This document shows positions 51,591-60,302 of a DNA stretch of 64,000 bases, piece after piece (within the stretch, counting starts at the first letter, position 1; the number at the start of each line of letters is the position of its first letter). A program made the position numbers and the translations under genes. The notes beneath the pieces were generated by a model that was not told the DNA's origin, did not search any database, and was given only the letters and a program-made list of their open reading frames with translations. The stretch is from positions 62,001-126,000 of the forward strand of contig NZ_JAPMLT010000001.1 in NCBI RefSeq assembly GCF_026410385.1. The letters run 5' to 3'. This stretch comes from Tumebacillus lacus (GTDB taxonomy: Bacteria > Bacillota > Bacilli > Tumebacillales > Tumebacillaceae).

Positions 51591-52418
51591 ATGGCAAGAA
51601 CTGTGGATTTTCAGGAGATGACCGTGGGAGAGATCCGCGATCACATACAGCAAAAAGCACCGAACAAGCGGCAAGTGAAGCAATTGTTGGCTGACGAAAG
51701 GGCCGGAGTGCGCAAGGTGATCGAGAGCTACCTGCGCGCGCAGGAGCGGCTCGCGTCGGAGGCGGCCCGGCAGGAGCGGATGTGGCGTTATGAGCGGGCG
51801 GCGAAGGAACAAGGCTATCGCTTTGTCGCCGGGATCGACGAGGCAGGCCGCGGACCGTTGGCAGGGCCGGTCGTCGTCGGAGCGGTGATCTTGCCGGAGG
51901 AGATCGATCTGCCGGGGTTAAACGATTCAAAGCAGGTCAAGGAAGAGACGCGGGATCTGCTGTTCGATTTGATCCGGGAACAGGCAGTGGCGTTTGGCAT
52001 CGGAGTGGTCGAGGTGGAATATATCGACCGGCACAACATTTTGCAGGCGACGTTTGAAGGGGCGCGCCGTGCGCTAAAGCAACTGAGCGCGTCGTTTGCG
52101 TTGGAGGCCGATTATCTCGTCACTGATTATTTGAAGATCCCCGGTGTGACGCAGCCTTATGAGGCGATTGTAAAAGGGGATGCCAGCTCGTATTCGATCG
52201 CTGCGGCGTCAATTTTGGCAAAGGTGACGCGGGATCGACTGATGAGCGCGTATGCGAGCGAGTATCCGGAGTATGGATTTGAACGGCACAAAGGGTATTC
52301 CAGCCCGGAACATCTGGCGGCGATTGAGCAGCATGGGCCGTGTGCGATCCATCGGAAGTCGTTTGCGCCGATCAAGCAGATGGTGCAAGGTTCGCTGTTT
52401 GACGGCATGGAGTGGTGA
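51591..52418 (+). CDS. rnhB: Ribonuclease HII
   Basis: A 275-residue enzyme that removes ribonucleotides from DNA. Catalytic acids: Asp and Glu of GIDEAGRGPLAGPVVVGAVI, with further Asp in LVTDYL and the second half of the domain. An N-terminal extension of about 75 residues (TVGEIRDHIQQK..., helical) is shared with the B. subtilis enzyme. The ATG follows AGAAAGGGG. The orphan FliK-like gene starts 26 bases later. Confidence 0.94.
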   Translation: MARTVDFQEMTVGEIRDHIQQKAPNKRQVKQLLADERAGVRKVIESYLRAQERLASEAARQERMWRYERAAKEQGYRFVAGIDEAGRGPLAGPVVVGAVILPEEIDLPGLNDSKQVKEETRDLLFDLIREQAVAFGIGVVEVEYIDRHNILQATFEGARRALKQLSASFALEADYLVTDYLKIPGVTQPYEAIVKGDASSYSIAAASILAKVTRDRLMSAYASEYPEYGFERHKGYSSPEHLAAIEQHGPCAIHRKSFAPIKQMVQGSLFDGMEW

Positions 52419-52444: not shown

Positions 52445-54490
52445 ATGTTGAGAGTGTCGGCGGGGCAATACGCGCAGTTGGCGGTGCAGGCGGTCACAGG
52501 CGCGAAGGAGGTCGACCTGAAGGTCGGCAGTGTGGTCAAGGCGACGTTGTTGGAAAAGCACGGCGACGGAGAAGCGACCGTACAGATCGGCGGTGCGAAG
52601 GTCCGGGCCAAATTGGAAGCCAACCTGCAACCGGGTGATCGTGTCAATCTGCTCGTCGCCGGGCAGACCGCACGCGGCGCGCTGGAACTGAAAGTGGTCG
52701 GCAAGGCTGGCTCGGAAGCGAGCAGCGGTGTCGATGCGGCGAGTCTGTTGCAAGCGTTGGGGTTGCCGGAGTTGGAAGAAGCCAAGGCTGTCGTCCGCGA
52801 GTTTGCGGCACGCGGGGTGCCGCTGCGCACCGACACGGTGAAAGCGGCAGTGGAAGCGTTGCACCAACTCGGCATCTCGAAACCAACTCCTGAACAGGTT
52901 GCGACGATTGGCAAGATGGCGGAGCTTGGCATCCCGATCAACAAGAGCACTGTGGAAGCGATGTTGGCGCTCGAGACCGGACCGAAACTGCACGACCTCC
53001 TGACTCGCCTCGCCACCAACCTCCGCACCGCGCTCCCGGCGAGCCTCTTCGCCGCCGGAGCAAGCCCCGAGTCCGCCCCCTCACCTGGGCAGACCGGGAC
53101 TGTGCAAGCAGGGATTGCTCAGACAGGCACTGCTCCGACAGGTACTGCTCCGACAGGTGCTGCTCAGACACGTGCTGCTCCGACAGGTACTGCTCAGACA
53201 GGTGCTGCTCAGACAGGTGCTGCTCAGACAGGTGCTGCTCAGACAAGTACTGCTCAGACGGGTACTGCTCAGACGGGTACTGCTCAGACAGGTGCTGCTC
53301 AGACAGGTGCTGCTCAGACAGGTGCTGCTCAGACAGGTGCTGCTCAGACAGGTGCTGCTCAGACAAGTACTGCGCAGACGGGTACTGCTCAGACAAGTAC
53401 TGCGCAGACGGGTACTGCTCAGACAAGTACTGCTCAGACAAGTACTGTGCAGACGGGTACTGTGCAGACGGGTACTGCTGCGACAGGTGCTGCTCCAACA
53501 GCAGGTACTGCTCCGACAAGTACTGCTCCGACAGGTACTGCTCCGACAGGGACTACCCAGACAGGCACTGCCCAAACAGGCACTGCCCAAACAGGCTCCG
53601 GTCCCGTTTCTCAACGGGCCTTTGCCGCTTCTGGAAATGCTGGGCTTTTCCTGGAAAATGAGATGGGTCGACCGAACCTGACAGGAGCCGACTCAACACC
53701 CCGTTCCGTTCTCTCCGAATCGACCGTCCGCGATCTTGCATGGCTCGCCCGAACGGCGGAGGAACTGCTCGCCACCGTACCGGAGTCGGATCACGCCGAT
53801 CTGGCCGACAAAGCACGCCGTCTTGGACTCGGTCTGGAAGAGCGGCTCGCTCACACGATGCGCCGCCTGCCGACCGACGCAGACCCGGAAGCGCTGCGCA
53901 CCGCTGCCAATTCCGCCCTGCGTGCCGATCTCACCTCAGACGGGAGCCTCAAATCCGCGCTGCTCCGCGTCGCCGCCGTAGCGGACGATCTCTCTGCGGC
54001 AGGCTTCCCTCATCTCGCAGATGACGTTTCGACGCTTCTGCGCCATGTCAGTGGCCAACAGGTCATGCAAACGGCAGGTGCGGAAAGGTCAGACCTTTTT
54101 TACCAATTCACCGCCATCCCATTCCAAGCAGGCGGCAAAGGTCAGACGCTCGAACTGCACGTCATGTCCCGCAAAAACAATGGTCAAAAAGCGATCGATC
54201 CGTCCAACTGCTATGTCCTGTTCCGCCTCGATCTGCCACATCTCGGCCAGACAGACATCCACCTGCACATCGTTGACAAAGTGGTCGGCATCCGTTTCCA
54301 GACCGCTCCCGACTCCGCACGGATCGAACTGACCGGCGGGGAACAACGCGAGCTGCGGGATGCCCTGCAGAACGTCGGCTTCCATCTGGGTGTCGTCCGC
54401 TCGGAAACAAAAACGCCCCCGGCACCCGGCGAGCGATTGCCTTTGCTCCCGCCGGTGCTGACCCAAGGGGCTGTCGATATGAAAATCTAG
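52445..54490 (+). CDS. FliK-like protein (YlqG position) with a pentapeptide repeat tract
   Basis: A 681-residue protein. The N-terminal about 210 residues combine a small beta domain (GSVVKATLLEKHGDGEATVQIGG) with helical segments. Residues about 216-386 are 34 tandem units of five residues, mostly QTGTA, QTGAA or QTSTA. The C-terminal about 130 residues resemble the flagellar hook-length control (FliK) C-terminal domain: an ELHVMSRKN-type start, VLFRLDLPHLGQTDIHLHI and LRDALQNVGFHLGVV. It lies between rnhB and an FlhB-C homologue, the ylqG-ylqH position of B. subtilis, far from flagellar genes. FliK binding to FlhB-C suggests the two proteins interact. The ATG follows AGGAGGAGGGGG. Confidence 0.8.
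   Translation: MLRVSAGQYAQLAVQAVTGAKEVDLKVGSVVKATLLEKHGDGEATVQIGGAKVRAKLEANLQPGDRVNLLVAGQTARGALELKVVGKAGSEASSGVDAASLLQALGLPELEEAKAVVREFAARGVPLRTDTVKAAVEALHQLGISKPTPEQVATIGKMAELGIPINKSTVEAMLALETGPKLHDLLTRLATNLRTALPASLFAAGASPESAPSPGQTGTVQAGIAQTGTAPTGTAPTGAAQTRAAPTGTAQTGAAQTGAAQTGAAQTSTAQTGTAQTGTAQTGAAQTGAAQTGAAQTGAAQTGAAQTSTAQTGTAQTSTAQTGTAQTSTAQTSTVQTGTVQTGTAATGAAPTAGTAPTSTAPTGTAPTGTTQTGTAQTGTAQTGSGPVSQRAFAASGNAGLFLENEMGRPNLTGADSTPRSVLSESTVRDLAWLARTAEELLATVPESDHADLADKARRLGLGLEERLAHTMRRLPTDADPEALRTAANSALRADLTSDGSLKSALLRVAAVADDLSAAGFPHLADDVSTLLRHVSGQQVMQTAGAERSDLFYQFTAIPFQAGGKGQTLELHVMSRKNNGQKAIDPSNCYVLFRLDLPHLGQTDIHLHIVDKVVGIRFQTAPDSARIELTGGEQRELRDALQNVGFHLGVVRSETKTPPAPGERLPLLPPVLTQGAVDMKI
53090..53602 (+). 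repeat. In-frame 15-base tandem repeat, about 34 units
   Basis: Repeats of the form CAGACAGGTGCTGCT or CAGACGGGTACTGCT, one per pentapeptide. Central units are identical or differ at 1-3 positions; outer units diverge (P for Q, one 6-residue unit PTAGTA). The high identity in the centre points to recent duplication by slippage or recombination. The array stays in frame throughout. Confidence 0.93.
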
Positions 54491-54502: not shown

Positions 54503-54784
54503 TTGTCCAGCGAACATCCGTCGTCAAAAAAAGCGGTCGCCCTCCGCTACGACCCGAACCAAAGCGCCGCTCCCCGCATCGTGGCCTCGGGGCGAGGCGC
54601 CTTGGCGGAGCAGATCCTTTCCACCGCCGAAGCGGCCGGCGTCCCGCTGCAAGAGGACAAAGCGCTCGTTGAAACCTTGCTCGCCTTTGAAGTCGGCAAA
54701 GAGATCCCGCCGGAACTCTATCAAGTCGTCGCAGAGGTCCTTGCTTTCGTACAACGCATCGATAAACGAGGACCGCGCTCATGA
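54503..54784 (+). CDS. FlhB C-terminal-domain homologue (FhlB/YlqH type)
   Basis: A 93-residue cytoplasmic protein matching the C-terminal domain of FlhB/YscU export switches: KAVALRYDPNQSAAPRIVASGRGALAEQIL and a final helix ending VLAFVQ. The N-terminal membrane part of FlhB is missing, and the NPTH autocleavage motif is not seen because the domain begins just after where it would lie. It follows the FliK-like gene after 12 bases with a TTG start (GGAGGCG) and overlaps yraN. Function unknown. Confidence 0.9.
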   Translation: MSSEHPSSKKAVALRYDPNQSAAPRIVASGRGALAEQILSTAEAAGVPLQEDKALVETLLAFEVGKEIPPELYQVVAEVLAFVQRIDKRGPRS

Positions 54785-55155
54785 CGGTCACAGACCCTCG
54801 CAAACAAACGGGTGCTCGGGGCGAAGCGTTCGCCGCCGACTACCTCGCCGGGTACGGCTACCGCATCCTCGACCGCAACTGGCGGCGCGCCGGCGGAGAG
54901 ATCGATTTGATCGCGGTCATCGGCGACACACTGGTCTTTATCGAGGTGCGCACGAGAACGTCTCGCGCCTACGGCAGCGCAGAGGAGTCGGTCGACGCAC
55001 GCAAACAACGCCAAGTCCGCAAAGTCGCGGCCCTCTACCTGGTCGAGGCGGGTCGTCTCCCGTTTCGCCGCTTCCGCTTTGACGTGATCGCCGTTCAGCT
55101 CGACCGGCGAACAGGCGAGTTGCAAACGCTCCGTCACCTCGAAGACGCTTTTTAA
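54781..55155 (+). CDS. yraN: YraN/UPF0102 endonuclease-like protein
   Basis: A 124-residue protein with a Holliday-junction-resolvase-like nuclease fold: GARGEAFAADYLAGYGYRILDRNWR, GGEIDLIAVIGDTLVFIEVRTR (the E-x-D...E-x-K-like core, here ending VRTR and not VKTR), and KQRQVRKVAALYL. The biological role of the family is unsettled. The start overlaps the FhlB stop. It ends the rnhB-to-yraN operon. Confidence 0.9.
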   Translation: MTVTDPRKQTGARGEAFAADYLAGYGYRILDRNWRRAGGEIDLIAVIGDTLVFIEVRTRTSRAYGSAEESVDARKQRQVRKVAALYLVEAGRLPFRRFRFDVIAVQLDRRTGELQTLRHLEDAF

Positions 55156-56705: not shown

Positions 56706-57899
56706 ATGAAAAAAGCGATTTCCATGATGACCGCCATCGCGGCATTGGCACTGGTTGTTCCGGCGGGCGCATCCGCAACTCCGGCAGCAGTTCCGGCGGT
56801 AACCAAAACGGCTGACGTTACGGCAGCGACCGACCGCATCTTGGTCAAATTTGCACCGGGCAAAGCGGCTGTTGACAAAGAAAAGGTACACGCGGCTCTC
56901 GGCGGCAAAGTGAAGCGCGAACTGGCTCAAGGCAAGTCGGGCTGGACGCTCGTAGAAGTTCCGGCGGGTCAAGCGGAAGCATATAAAGCGAAATACGAAA
57001 AAAACCCGAACATCGAGAAAGCGGAACTTGATCTCGTGTACACCAAGACCGCACTGCCGAACGACCCGTTGATCGGTCAGCAGTGGCACCACACCAACGT
57101 GAAGTCCTCGGCTGCTTGGGGCGTTGTGACCGGCTCCACGAAGACCATCGCGATCATCGACACCGGCATCGACCTCGATCACCCGGACCTCGCTGCAAAG
57201 ATCGTACCGGGCGCGACCTTCGTAGACCGTACCACCACTGCGGATGACGATGAAGGGCACGGCACGCACTGCGCAGGCATCGCGGCTGGCATCGGCAACA
57301 ACGGCGTCGGCATCTCGGGCATGGACCAAACGGCGAAACTGATGCCGGTTAAGGTTCTGAACAAGCGTGGCTCCGGCTACACCTCCGACATCATCGAGGG
57401 CGTATACTTCGCAGCTGACAACGGCGCGGACGTATTGTCGATGTCCCTTGGCGGCGGCGGCGCGACCTCTGCGTTCCAAGACGCGATCAACTACGCACAC
57501 GGCAAGAACAAGATCGTCGTAGCGGCTGCAGGCAACAGCGGCGTCTCCACGCTGTCCTACCCGGCTGCTTACAACAACGTATTGTCTGTTGCAGCAACCG
57601 ACCAAAACGATGTGAAGACCTCCTGGTCGAATTACGGTTCTTCCTGGGTTGACGTAGCAGCTCCGGGCCTGTCGATCTACTCGACCTACAACGACGGCGG
57701 TTACACCACGATGTCCGGCACCTCGATGGCTACTCCGCTGGTCGCTGGCCTGCTGTCCCTGACCTGGGGTGCAAACCCGGGCGCAACCAACGCGGGCGTC
57801 ATCAACCGCGTGCTGACCACTGCTGACAACACCGCTGGCGTAGGTTCTTACTACAAATACGGCCGTGTGAACGCGTACAACGCAGTCTTCGGCTTCTAA
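56706..57899 (+). CDS. Secreted subtilisin-like serine protease (thermitase type)
   Basis: A 397-residue pre-pro-protease. A signal peptide (KKAISMMTAIAALALVVPAGASA) is followed by an I9-like propeptide (about 40-105, RILVKFAPGKAAVDKE...). The S8 domain has Asp in AIIDTGIDLDHPDL, His in GHGTHCAGIAAG, the oxyanion Asn in AAAGNSG and Ser in SGTSMATPLVAGLL. The HGTHCAG cysteine and the overall pattern are thermitase-like. Codon use is that of a well-expressed gene (GCA, GCT, GTA enriched). GGGAGGAAATG lies before the ATG. Confidence 0.95.
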   Translation: MKKAISMMTAIAALALVVPAGASATPAAVPAVTKTADVTAATDRILVKFAPGKAAVDKEKVHAALGGKVKRELAQGKSGWTLVEVPAGQAEAYKAKYEKNPNIEKAELDLVYTKTALPNDPLIGQQWHHTNVKSSAAWGVVTGSTKTIAIIDTGIDLDHPDLAAKIVPGATFVDRTTTADDDEGHGTHCAGIAAGIGNNGVGISGMDQTAKLMPVKVLNKRGSGYTSDIIEGVYFAADNGADVLSMSLGGGGATSAFQDAINYAHGKNKIVVAAAGNSGVSTLSYPAAYNNVLSVAATDQNDVKTSWSNYGSSWVDVAAPGLSIYSTYNDGGYTTMSGTSMATPLVAGLLSLTWGANPGATNAGVINRVLTTADNTAGVGSYYKYGRVNAYNAVFGF

Positions 57900-57945: not shown

Positions 57946-58016
57946 ATTGATAAACGAGGTTGCAACCGGGATGTAACCGATTTCATCTATGCTCAATAAA
58001 AAAGGAGGTACTATCC

Positions 58017-60302
58017 ATGAGACGCACTTTGGTATGGGGCATCATCATGACGATGCTGCTTGCGCTGTTTGCGCCGAGCACATTCCCGACGTTTGCAGCC
58101 ACTGGAAAATGGGAGCAGTTCAATTACAGCGGCACCCCCGGTTCACGGCCTTACTTTGTCTACACGCCATCGACCTATCAACCGGGCACGTCGGTGCCGA
58201 TGGTGGTTATGTTGCACGGTTGCACGCAAACGCCGGCCGATTTTGCGGCTGGCACGGGGATGAACGAGCTCGCCGAGCAGTACAACTTCCTCGTCGTCTA
58301 CCCGCAACAGACCAGTTCGAACAATCAAAATCAATGTTGGAACTGGTTTGAAACTGCGCATCAAGCACGCAGCGGCGGCGAACCGGCGATCATCGCCGGC
58401 ATCGTCAAGGCCGTGACAGACAACACGGCAAAATGGACGGTGGACAAAAACCGCGTCTACGTCACCGGCCTCTCCGCAGGAGCGGCGATGTCGGCCATCG
58501 TCGGCGTCACGCACCCTGACGTATTTGCCGCCATCGGTATACACTCGGGGCTGGAGTACAAAGCGGCCACGACGATGACAGCCGCTTTCACCGCGATGAG
58601 CAGCGGCGGTCCGAACCCGACCTCGCAAGGGCAGGCTGCTTACAATGCGATGGGCTCCTATGCCCGCGTGGTCCCGACCATCGTCTTCCAAGGCACCAGC
58701 GACTACACCGTCTACCCGGTCAACGGCGATCAAGTGATCCAGCAATACATGGAGACGGATCGACTCGCATCCGGCGGTTCGTACAACGCATCGTTCAACA
58801 CCCCGTCCAGCACCACGCCGGGGCAAGTATCCGGCACACAAGGGCGTTCTTACAACATCTACCGTTGGAATGACAACAACGGCAATCTCGTGCAAGAATA
58901 CTGGAAGATCAACTCGATGGGCCATGCATGGTCCGGCGGCAGCACCAGCGGCTCCTACACGGACCCGAACGGTCCGAACGCGAGCCTTGCCATGTATCAA
59001 TTCTTCATGGCGCACCCCAAAGGCATCGCAGTCAGCGCTTCCCCCAAGGGTGGCTCCTTCTCGTCCTCTGTGCAAGTCACGCTGAGCAGCACGCCGTCCG
59101 GTACGATCTACTACACGACAGACGACAGCACGCCGACGACAGCCTCGACTCGCTATACAGGCGCGGTTACGCTGACGCAGACGACGACGCTGAAGTTTTT
59201 CGCCGTTGACGCAGGCGGACAAAAGAGCGCGATCCAGTCGGAAACCTACACGATCAGCACCCCTGCTCCTGTGATCACCGCTTCTCCGGATGCCGGCACG
59301 TACGGCGGCCCGGTCAGTGTCTCGCTCACTTCCAACAAAACGGGCACGACGATCTACTACACCACGAACGGCAGCACGCCGACCGCCTCTTCTGCTCGCT
59401 ACTCTGCACCATTGGCTCTGTCCGCTGCGACGACGCTGAAGTATTTTGCGGTCGACAGCATCGGCAACACGAGCCCGGTCACGACCAAAACCTACGCGAT
59501 CACCGGCTTCGAACTGTCGGCCAGCCCGGCAGGCGGCACGTACAGCGGTGCACAGAGCGTATCCCTGTCGATGAACATGCCGGGTACGATCTACTATACG
59601 ACCAACGGCACCACGCCGACGATCGCGTCGACCGTCTACACAGGTCCGATCAAAGTCTCCGCCTCGCAGACGCTGAAATTTATCGGCAAAGACCTGGCAG
59701 GCAATTTGTCGGGTGTGCAGTCGCACACCTACACGATCACCTCGCCGCCTGCCACCGACGTCACGTTCAAATCGCTGGCCGCGGATGACGGATACGTCTA
59801 CCAATACAGCAGCGACGGCGTTCCGAACAGCATGATCAACTACCTCGAAGTCGGTTCGAGCTCGCTCAACCACGGTCAGATCGGCATTCTTTCGTTCGAT
59901 ACCTCGTCGATCCCGGATACCGCAACGGTGGTCAGCGCTTCGATTACCATGTACCGCTATGACAATACGCTCTATTACTATGACCTCGGTCCGATCACGG
60001 CTGACATCGCGCCGCTCTCCGGCTTCAACGGCAACTACTCATTGGAGCAGGCGGACTATGCGGCACCGGCTGCGGTTGTAAACATCGGCAACTTCGACGC
60101 GGTACCCACGGCGCAGTATCAGGCGATCTCTGACTCGATTGCCACGGCTGCCTTGCCCTACCTGAACAAAACCGGTCGCACCCAGTTCCGCATTCACTTT
60201 GAAAAGGCAACCAACAACCGCTATGCGCTCGACGTGATGCGCTTCTTCAGCGGCAACTCGGCAGGCGCCTATGTGCCGACGCTGAAAGTTCAATACCGGT
60301 AA
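58017..60302 (+). CDS. Secreted PHB-depolymerase-type esterase with chitobiase-C repeats
   Basis: A 761-residue secreted enzyme. A signal peptide (to about residue 28, TFAAT) leads to an alpha/beta hydrolase of the PHB depolymerase/LpqC family (about 30-335): oxyanion MLHGCTQ, nucleophile GLSAGAAMS, Asp in QGTSDYTVYP, His in SMGHAWSGG. Three consecutive chitobiase-C-type beta repeats of about 80 residues follow (about 335-595), each with (G)TIYYTT and then a TTLKFFAVD-type strand. The C-terminal about 160 residues (GILSFDTSSIP, ITMYRYD, RIHFEKATNNRYALDVMRFFS) resemble DNRLRE-type modules that bind polysaccharide or anchor enzymes. AAAGGAGGT precedes the ATG. The true substrate (polyester, feruloyl or acetyl ester) cannot be told. 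Confidence 0.88.
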   Translation: MRRTLVWGIIMTMLLALFAPSTFPTFAATGKWEQFNYSGTPGSRPYFVYTPSTYQPGTSVPMVVMLHGCTQTPADFAAGTGMNELAEQYNFLVVYPQQTSSNNQNQCWNWFETAHQARSGGEPAIIAGIVKAVTDNTAKWTVDKNRVYVTGLSAGAAMSAIVGVTHPDVFAAIGIHSGLEYKAATTMTAAFTAMSSGGPNPTSQGQAAYNAMGSYARVVPTIVFQGTSDYTVYPVNGDQVIQQYMETDRLASGGSYNASFNTPSSTTPGQVSGTQGRSYNIYRWNDNNGNLVQEYWKINSMGHAWSGGSTSGSYTDPNGPNASLAMYQFFMAHPKGIAVSASPKGGSFSSSVQVTLSSTPSGTIYYTTDDSTPTTASTRYTGAVTLTQTTTLKFFAVDAGGQKSAIQSETYTISTPAPVITASPDAGTYGGPVSVSLTSNKTGTTIYYTTNGSTPTASSARYSAPLALSAATTLKYFAVDSIGNTSPVTTKTYAITGFELSASPAGGTYSGAQSVSLSMNMPGTIYYTTNGTTPTIASTVYTGPIKVSASQTLKFIGKDLAGNLSGVQSHTYTITSPPATDVTFKSLAADDGYVYQYSSDGVPNSMINYLEVGSSSLNHGQIGILSFDTSSIPDTATVVSASITMYRYDNTLYYYDLGPITADIAPLSGFNGNYSLEQADYAAPAAVVNIGNFDAVPTAQYQAISDSIATAALPYLNKTGRTQFRIHFEKATNNRYALDVMRFFSGNSAGAYVPTLKVQYR

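Follow-up and report, generated by a model that had tools for sequence, protein, structure and literature searches.

In Salmonella, the target of the C-terminal domain of FliK (FliK_C) is FlhB, and for binding to be efficient the flexible linker must be adequate (PMC6972891); according to another study, the export switch involves losing the cleaved C-terminal domain of FlhB (PMC13344023). For the products of the Bacillus genes ylqG and ylqH, our literature search returned no functional study, and none of an array such as the one described here, which is weak evidence because subscription journals were thinly covered. One further report lists a ylqG point mutation, one of many, from evolved B. 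subtilis clones (PMC11523185), and another has ylqH as a gene named in an annotation (PMC9235176).

The locus analyzed here lies in a 64,000-nucleotide stretch of the Tumebacillus lacus genome (the window). It carries a gene pair of this known kind, with a new variation on it, a tandem array in the linker of the FliK-like protein. The gene order is rnhB, array gene, FlhB-C-like gene and yraN-type gene:

51591-52418, plus strand: rnhB (ribonuclease HII), the conserved upstream neighbour (Pfam PF01351, 127 bits).
52445-54490, plus strand: FliK-like (YlqG-type) gene, 681 aa, ATG start, stop included (open reading frame with orthologs in 6/6 other family genomes).
54503-54784, plus strand: partner gene (YlqH-type), 93 aa, TTG start, a stand-alone FlhB cytoplasmic domain without NPTH (PF01312, TIGR00789 and alignment with 3b1s_B).
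54781-55155, plus strand: UPF0102 (YraN-type) gene, downstream, overlapping the end of the partner gene (Pfam PF02021, 101 bits).

We take the array gene to be of the YlqG type and the pair to correspond to ylqG/ylqH of Bacillus. Further along the window, two ORFs were recognized by eye, one of them protease-like of the subtilisin type (56706-57899), the other esterase/depolymerase-like and carrying repeated modules at its C-terminus (57960-60302). The array gene itself divides into the following parts:

52445-53053, plus strand: residues 1-203, the N-terminal part, for which a beta barrel and then helices are predicted (moderate-to-low-confidence model; conserved in a 10-sequence alignment).
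53054-53707, plus strand: predicted disordered linker, residues 204-421 (pLDDT below 50 throughout; composition; unalignable among relatives).
53090-53602, plus strand: 34-unit array of 15-bp units encoding QTG[T/A]A, interrupted at 53501-53503 by 3 inserted bases (Tandem Repeats Finder and unit-by-unit reading).
53708-54487, plus strand: C-terminal part, residues 422-681, with a Flg_hook match at about 54197-54415, residues 585-657 (Pfam, alignment, model and hhalign).

Tandem Repeats Finder (TRF), run on the whole window, reports a single array scoring at least 50, at 53116-53595, with a period of 15, 31.8 copies and 86% matches. Unit-by-unit counting extends it to 34 in-frame 15-bp units at 53090-53602, free of frameshifts and interrupted only by the 3-bp insertion, so that the coordinates and description of a 34-unit pentapeptide array in the initial annotation are borne out. 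The consensus unit is CAGACAGGTACTGCT, encoding QTGTA, and the most frequent exact unit, CAGACAGGTGCTGCT, accounts for 8 of the 34. Shifted by 15 positions, the array matches itself at 0.85, a value compared with at most 0.32 in 1000 letter shuffles. Near-identity of the central units, as first noticed, is also confirmed (87% pairwise identity for the 19 units starting at 53195-53465 versus 75% for the remaining 15), and it supports the recent expansion proposed from it. That the array stays in frame is equally true, yet expected for a 15-bp period. Searching the genome for the exact pattern returned 16 matches, each inside the array gene; a dispersed element was rejected, as the array's exact pattern is confined to this one gene. 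Among the genomes searched there was no second strain of the same species. Since the 15-bp unit is stop-free, other frames are open across the array as well (53081-53614 and 52938-53519 on the minus strand, 53115-53681 on the plus strand), and these long open frames are not evidence of genes.

The array fills a predicted-disordered linker that separates the N-terminal domain from a Flg_hook (FliK_C-type) C-terminal domain. Of the linker residues, 90% are T, A, G, Q, P or S and 4% are charged, with threonine alone contributing 57 of 218. The AlphaFold2 model, for which 4 sequences were used, has a mean pLDDT of 50 and is thus weak; it gives the C-terminal part a mixed structure. The Flg_hook profile, whose cut-off is 29.8 bits, matches the array protein marginally, at 31.3 bits in one search and 27.9 bits by hmmscan, and its six family relatives at 37-45 bits; hhalign against seven true FliK C-domains, a single pairwise profile comparison rather than a library search, returned 75% probability (E 2.6e-5, 62 columns). 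On these matches the FliK-like label of the initial annotation holds as far as the C-terminal domain is concerned. When the C-domain profile was compared with solved structures, no FliK chain was found and the two weak matches were unrelated (best E 0.43). A fold search with the weak full-length model gave 0 matches at E 0.001 or lower, OB-barrel-like matches of the N-terminal part in the fold search were not significant, and the NCBIfam search yielded no family for the array protein. A pentapeptide beta-helix was considered for the array and rejected, PF01469 scoring 24.2 bits, below its Pfam cut-off of 26.4; the array units also lack the central Leu/Phe of that motif.

The same genome encodes a second Flg_hook protein, a 443-aa ORF (C1:157486-158817; 67 bits) about 41 kb downstream, within the flagellar operon. 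Its neighbours, read by eye, are fliF, fliG, fliH, fliI and fliJ before it and flgD, fliL, fliM, fliY, fliP and fliR after it, and FlhB and FlhA, backed by sequence matches, lie further on. The array gene does not occupy this FliK position before flgD, being located between rnhB and the FlhB-C-like gene. Exactly two Flg_hook matches occur in each of the 7 family genomes compared, and no tandem array scoring at least 40 was found at the FliK locus of any of the 7. Judged by sequence and position, the array protein is distinct from the genome's own FliK, and the hook-length ruler of T. lacus is probably that separate protein.

Comparison with relatives covered 7 family genomes including T. lacus, among them Tumebacillus avium, T. 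flagellatus and T. permanentifrigoris; array-driven low-complexity matches outside the family, which appeared in the first protein search, were left out. In the 10-sequence alignment the N-terminal and C-terminal flanks can be matched up but the linker cannot; measured from one conserved anchor motif to another, its length ranges from 192 to 293 residues in the 7 family members. Linker arrays with a TRF score above 300 are present in three of them, with units of 15 bp (T. lacus), 39 bp (L005) and 78 bp (L006) that are mutually unrelated in sequence, and absent at that score from the other four (L004, L007, L008, L009). The 39-bp array of T. avium (L005:2161-2566) and the 78-bp array (L006:2259-2675) occupy positions equivalent to that of the T. 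lacus array. No TRF match scoring at least 100 was found in 23 more distant loci (L010-L032, several with a partial gene). A full-length gene scan of the named genome collection found only three loci, all from Tumebacillus, and the plasmid collection contained no match to the array protein. Related species have thus filled this place in the linker in different ways, a pattern that agrees better with a tether tolerant of length changes than with a ruler. Of the functions offered at the outset, the elastic spacer stands in the form of a flexible tether, our best reading, given that the linker varies in length and the arrays of relatives are unrelated or missing.

The partner gene matches PF01312 at 76 bits (cut-off 24.4), only profile positions 262-335 being covered, and TIGR00789 at 102.2 bits, below the curated cut-off of 117.35; it can also be aligned with FlhB fragments of solved structure, among which 3b1s_B scores best (E 1.5e-14). 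According to these profile and structure alignments, it is the cytoplasmic domain of FlhB in the form of a short protein of its own. A full FlhB was ruled out, as the membrane part and the NPTH autocleavage motif are absent. NPTH was likewise found in none of 39 partner-matching ORFs from the loci examined (a set in which L027 and L054 represent one gene, L024 is truncated at its end and L003 comes from the window), and it is present in the 40th, the genome's own FlhB. RnhB lies directly upstream in 17 of the 18 primary loci fetched, the exception being L099.

Across the class, 200 genomes were sampled, with FlhA detected in 152, weakly in four of these (G049, G125, G165, G194). TIGR00789, which matches FlhB itself too, matches 148 of the 200 and exceeds its cut-off in 3. 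The FliK_C-type profile A2 matches 107, all of which are FlhA-positive, and none of the 48 FlhA-negative genomes; the association is strong (Fisher p 1.6e-20), in a test that ignores shared ancestry, which inflates the counts. Among the 133 TIGR00789-matching genomes listed, none is FlhA-negative. An A2 match is missing from 45 of the 152 FlhA-positive genomes, so either flagella do not generally require the protein or it escapes the profile. A TIGR00789 match lies at most 700 bp downstream of at least 112 of the 129 A2 hits, and of the ten hits fetched from among the 17 unpaired ones, a partner is clear in eight (L052, L074, L080-L085), weak in L079 and absent in L075.

Two A2 hits occur in 22 of the 107 matching genomes. 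Ten long copies were fetched, with frames of 795-1939 aa, and in all ten flagellin lies beside the pair; a FliS-like gene stands between the two in nine, the exception being L050, whose flagellin is on the other strand. Around L048, Pfam identifies FlaG, FliD, FliS, FliT, a second FliS and flagellin. Sixteen further regions were chosen among second or unpaired A2 hits, of which L075 turned out to be rnhB-linked; 13 of the remaining 15 show the order pair, FliS-like gene, flagellin, with a weak and distant flagellin match in L079 and none within the fetched stretch of L073. Flagellin therefore adjoins the pair in 23 of the 25 copies examined outside the rnhB neighbourhood, a non-random selection, and both flagellin and FliS do so in 22 of the 25. 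Because some of the genomes have a single A2 hit, we call these copies flagellin-linked rather than second copies. Pairs beside FliS-like and flagellin genes, with FliK-like frames of up to 1939 aa, are those of L045-L054, L070-L072, L074, L076-L078 and L080-L085. In L048 the 1353-aa flagellin-linked FliK-like gene contains 3.8 copies of a 375-bp unit (L048:4675-6115; 125 aa, probably helical). The confinement of A2 matches to FlhA-positive genomes, together with the flagellin-side copies, ties the gene pair to flagella by context.

We consider it likely that the array is a slippage-grown, length-tolerant tether in a YlqG-type protein belonging to a FliK_C/FlhB_C-like export-control module. 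Within the disordered linker, replication slippage or unequal exchange would have expanded a young 15-bp minisatellite, and it would remain in frame because either process, acting on a 15-bp unit, preserves the frame. The linker would tether the N-terminal domain to the FliK_C-type domain, with selection keeping mainly its flexibility and solubility, so that both the unit and the number of units could drift; we infer that no ruler-like readout of its length takes place. By analogy with FliK and FlhB, the FliK_C-type domain may bind the free FlhB-C-like partner and/or FlhB and thereby modulate flagellar export. Counted against this explanation are the location of the primary copy among housekeeping rather than flagellar genes, the marginal Flg_hook score, the weak model, the structure and fold searches, which brought up no FliK chain and no significant fold match, and the 45 FlhA-positive genomes lacking an A2 match. 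A bolder version, which we regard as unlikely, would make YlqG/YlqH pairs a second FliK_C/FlhB_C switch in the flagella of Bacilli, self-contained and directed at late (filament) export. In it a FliK_C-type protein would handle a free FlhB_C-like protein, and its spacer, lengthened by tandem duplication, would tune the timing or the manner in which late export is permitted. The spacer would then be of different kinds, a pentapeptide array in T. lacus and 125-aa helical repeats in a copy beside flagellin.

It is quite unlikely, in our judgement, that the array is neutral filler in a pair that is itself a housekeeping relic, sharing domains with FliK and FlhB and having no flagellar role. The primary copies do lie between rnhB and yraN-type genes, with RnhB directly upstream in 17 of 18, and our literature search yielded no functional study, ylqG being mentioned for a point mutation among many (PMC11523185). 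However, such a relic would hardly be expected to match A2 exclusively in FlhA-positive genomes (107/107, with 0/48 FlhA-negative genomes matching), to have flagellin and FliS beside its copies at 22 of 25 loci, or to conserve both domains that flank the linker. A flagellar role of a different sort is assumed if the extended array is a ruler that determines how long some flagellar structure becomes, in the way that the physical length of FliK determines that of the hook. The FliK_C-type domain and the adjoining FlhB-C-like gene are compatible with it, and so are the long helical repeats of some flagellin-linked spacers (125 aa in 3.8 copies in L048; frames up to 1939 aa); moreover, linker deletions in Salmonella FliK shorten the hook (PMC6972891), and 171 residues at 0.37 nm each would span about 63 nm. 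Yet a separate FliK is encoded in the flagellar operon, two Flg_hook proteins are found in 7/7 family genomes, the linker differs by about 100 residues among the 7 family members and the array is absent from 4 of them. Since a separate FliK without an array exists and both linker length and arrays vary, the hook ruler suggested in the initial annotation is rejected as the leading reading, and we hold a ruler of any kind to be improbable.

The remaining alternatives concern the repeat units themselves and their number. Threonine-rich units could serve as glycosylation or phosphorylation sites or as a repeated binding motif, for which the 57 threonines among 218 linker residues might speak, but the units of relatives are unrelated and we think this very unlikely. 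The copy number could also be wrong in the assembly, a 26-contig draft. We rate such an artefact as possible but highly improbable: the units are distinguishable by their variants, and the longest exact repeat internal to the array is 71 bp, shorter than common short reads, so that reads of at least 100 bp could in principle resolve it.

By itself the array is a modest finding. It is a clear example of unrelated tandem repeats refilling a disordered linker in close relatives. The FliK_C-like and FlhB_C-like module is of more interest, since the confinement of the pair to FlhA-positive genomes in the class sample, often also beside flagellin, suggests an additional component of export control. 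Four known systems come closest. Pentapeptide-repeat beta-helix proteins share the five-residue period with the array, whose region, in contrast, is predicted to be disordered and scores below the PF01469 cut-off. With FliK, the hook-length control protein, the array protein has in common a Flg_hook C-domain preceded by a long flexible linker; the array gene differs in lying outside the flagellar operon, in its unrelated and variable linker and in its N-terminal part. Helicobacter pylori HP1575, a stand-alone FlhB C-terminal homologue reportedly termed a 'spare part' in the title of a paper, resembles the partner gene in being an FlhB cytoplasmic domain without the membrane part, a likeness drawn from its description, whereas the T. 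lacus partner is paired with a FliK-like gene. The YlqG/YlqH pair of Bacillus has the same position after rnhB, a FliK-like C-domain and an FlhB-C-like partner, and the T. lacus pair is set apart from it by the 34-unit pentapeptide array in its linker.
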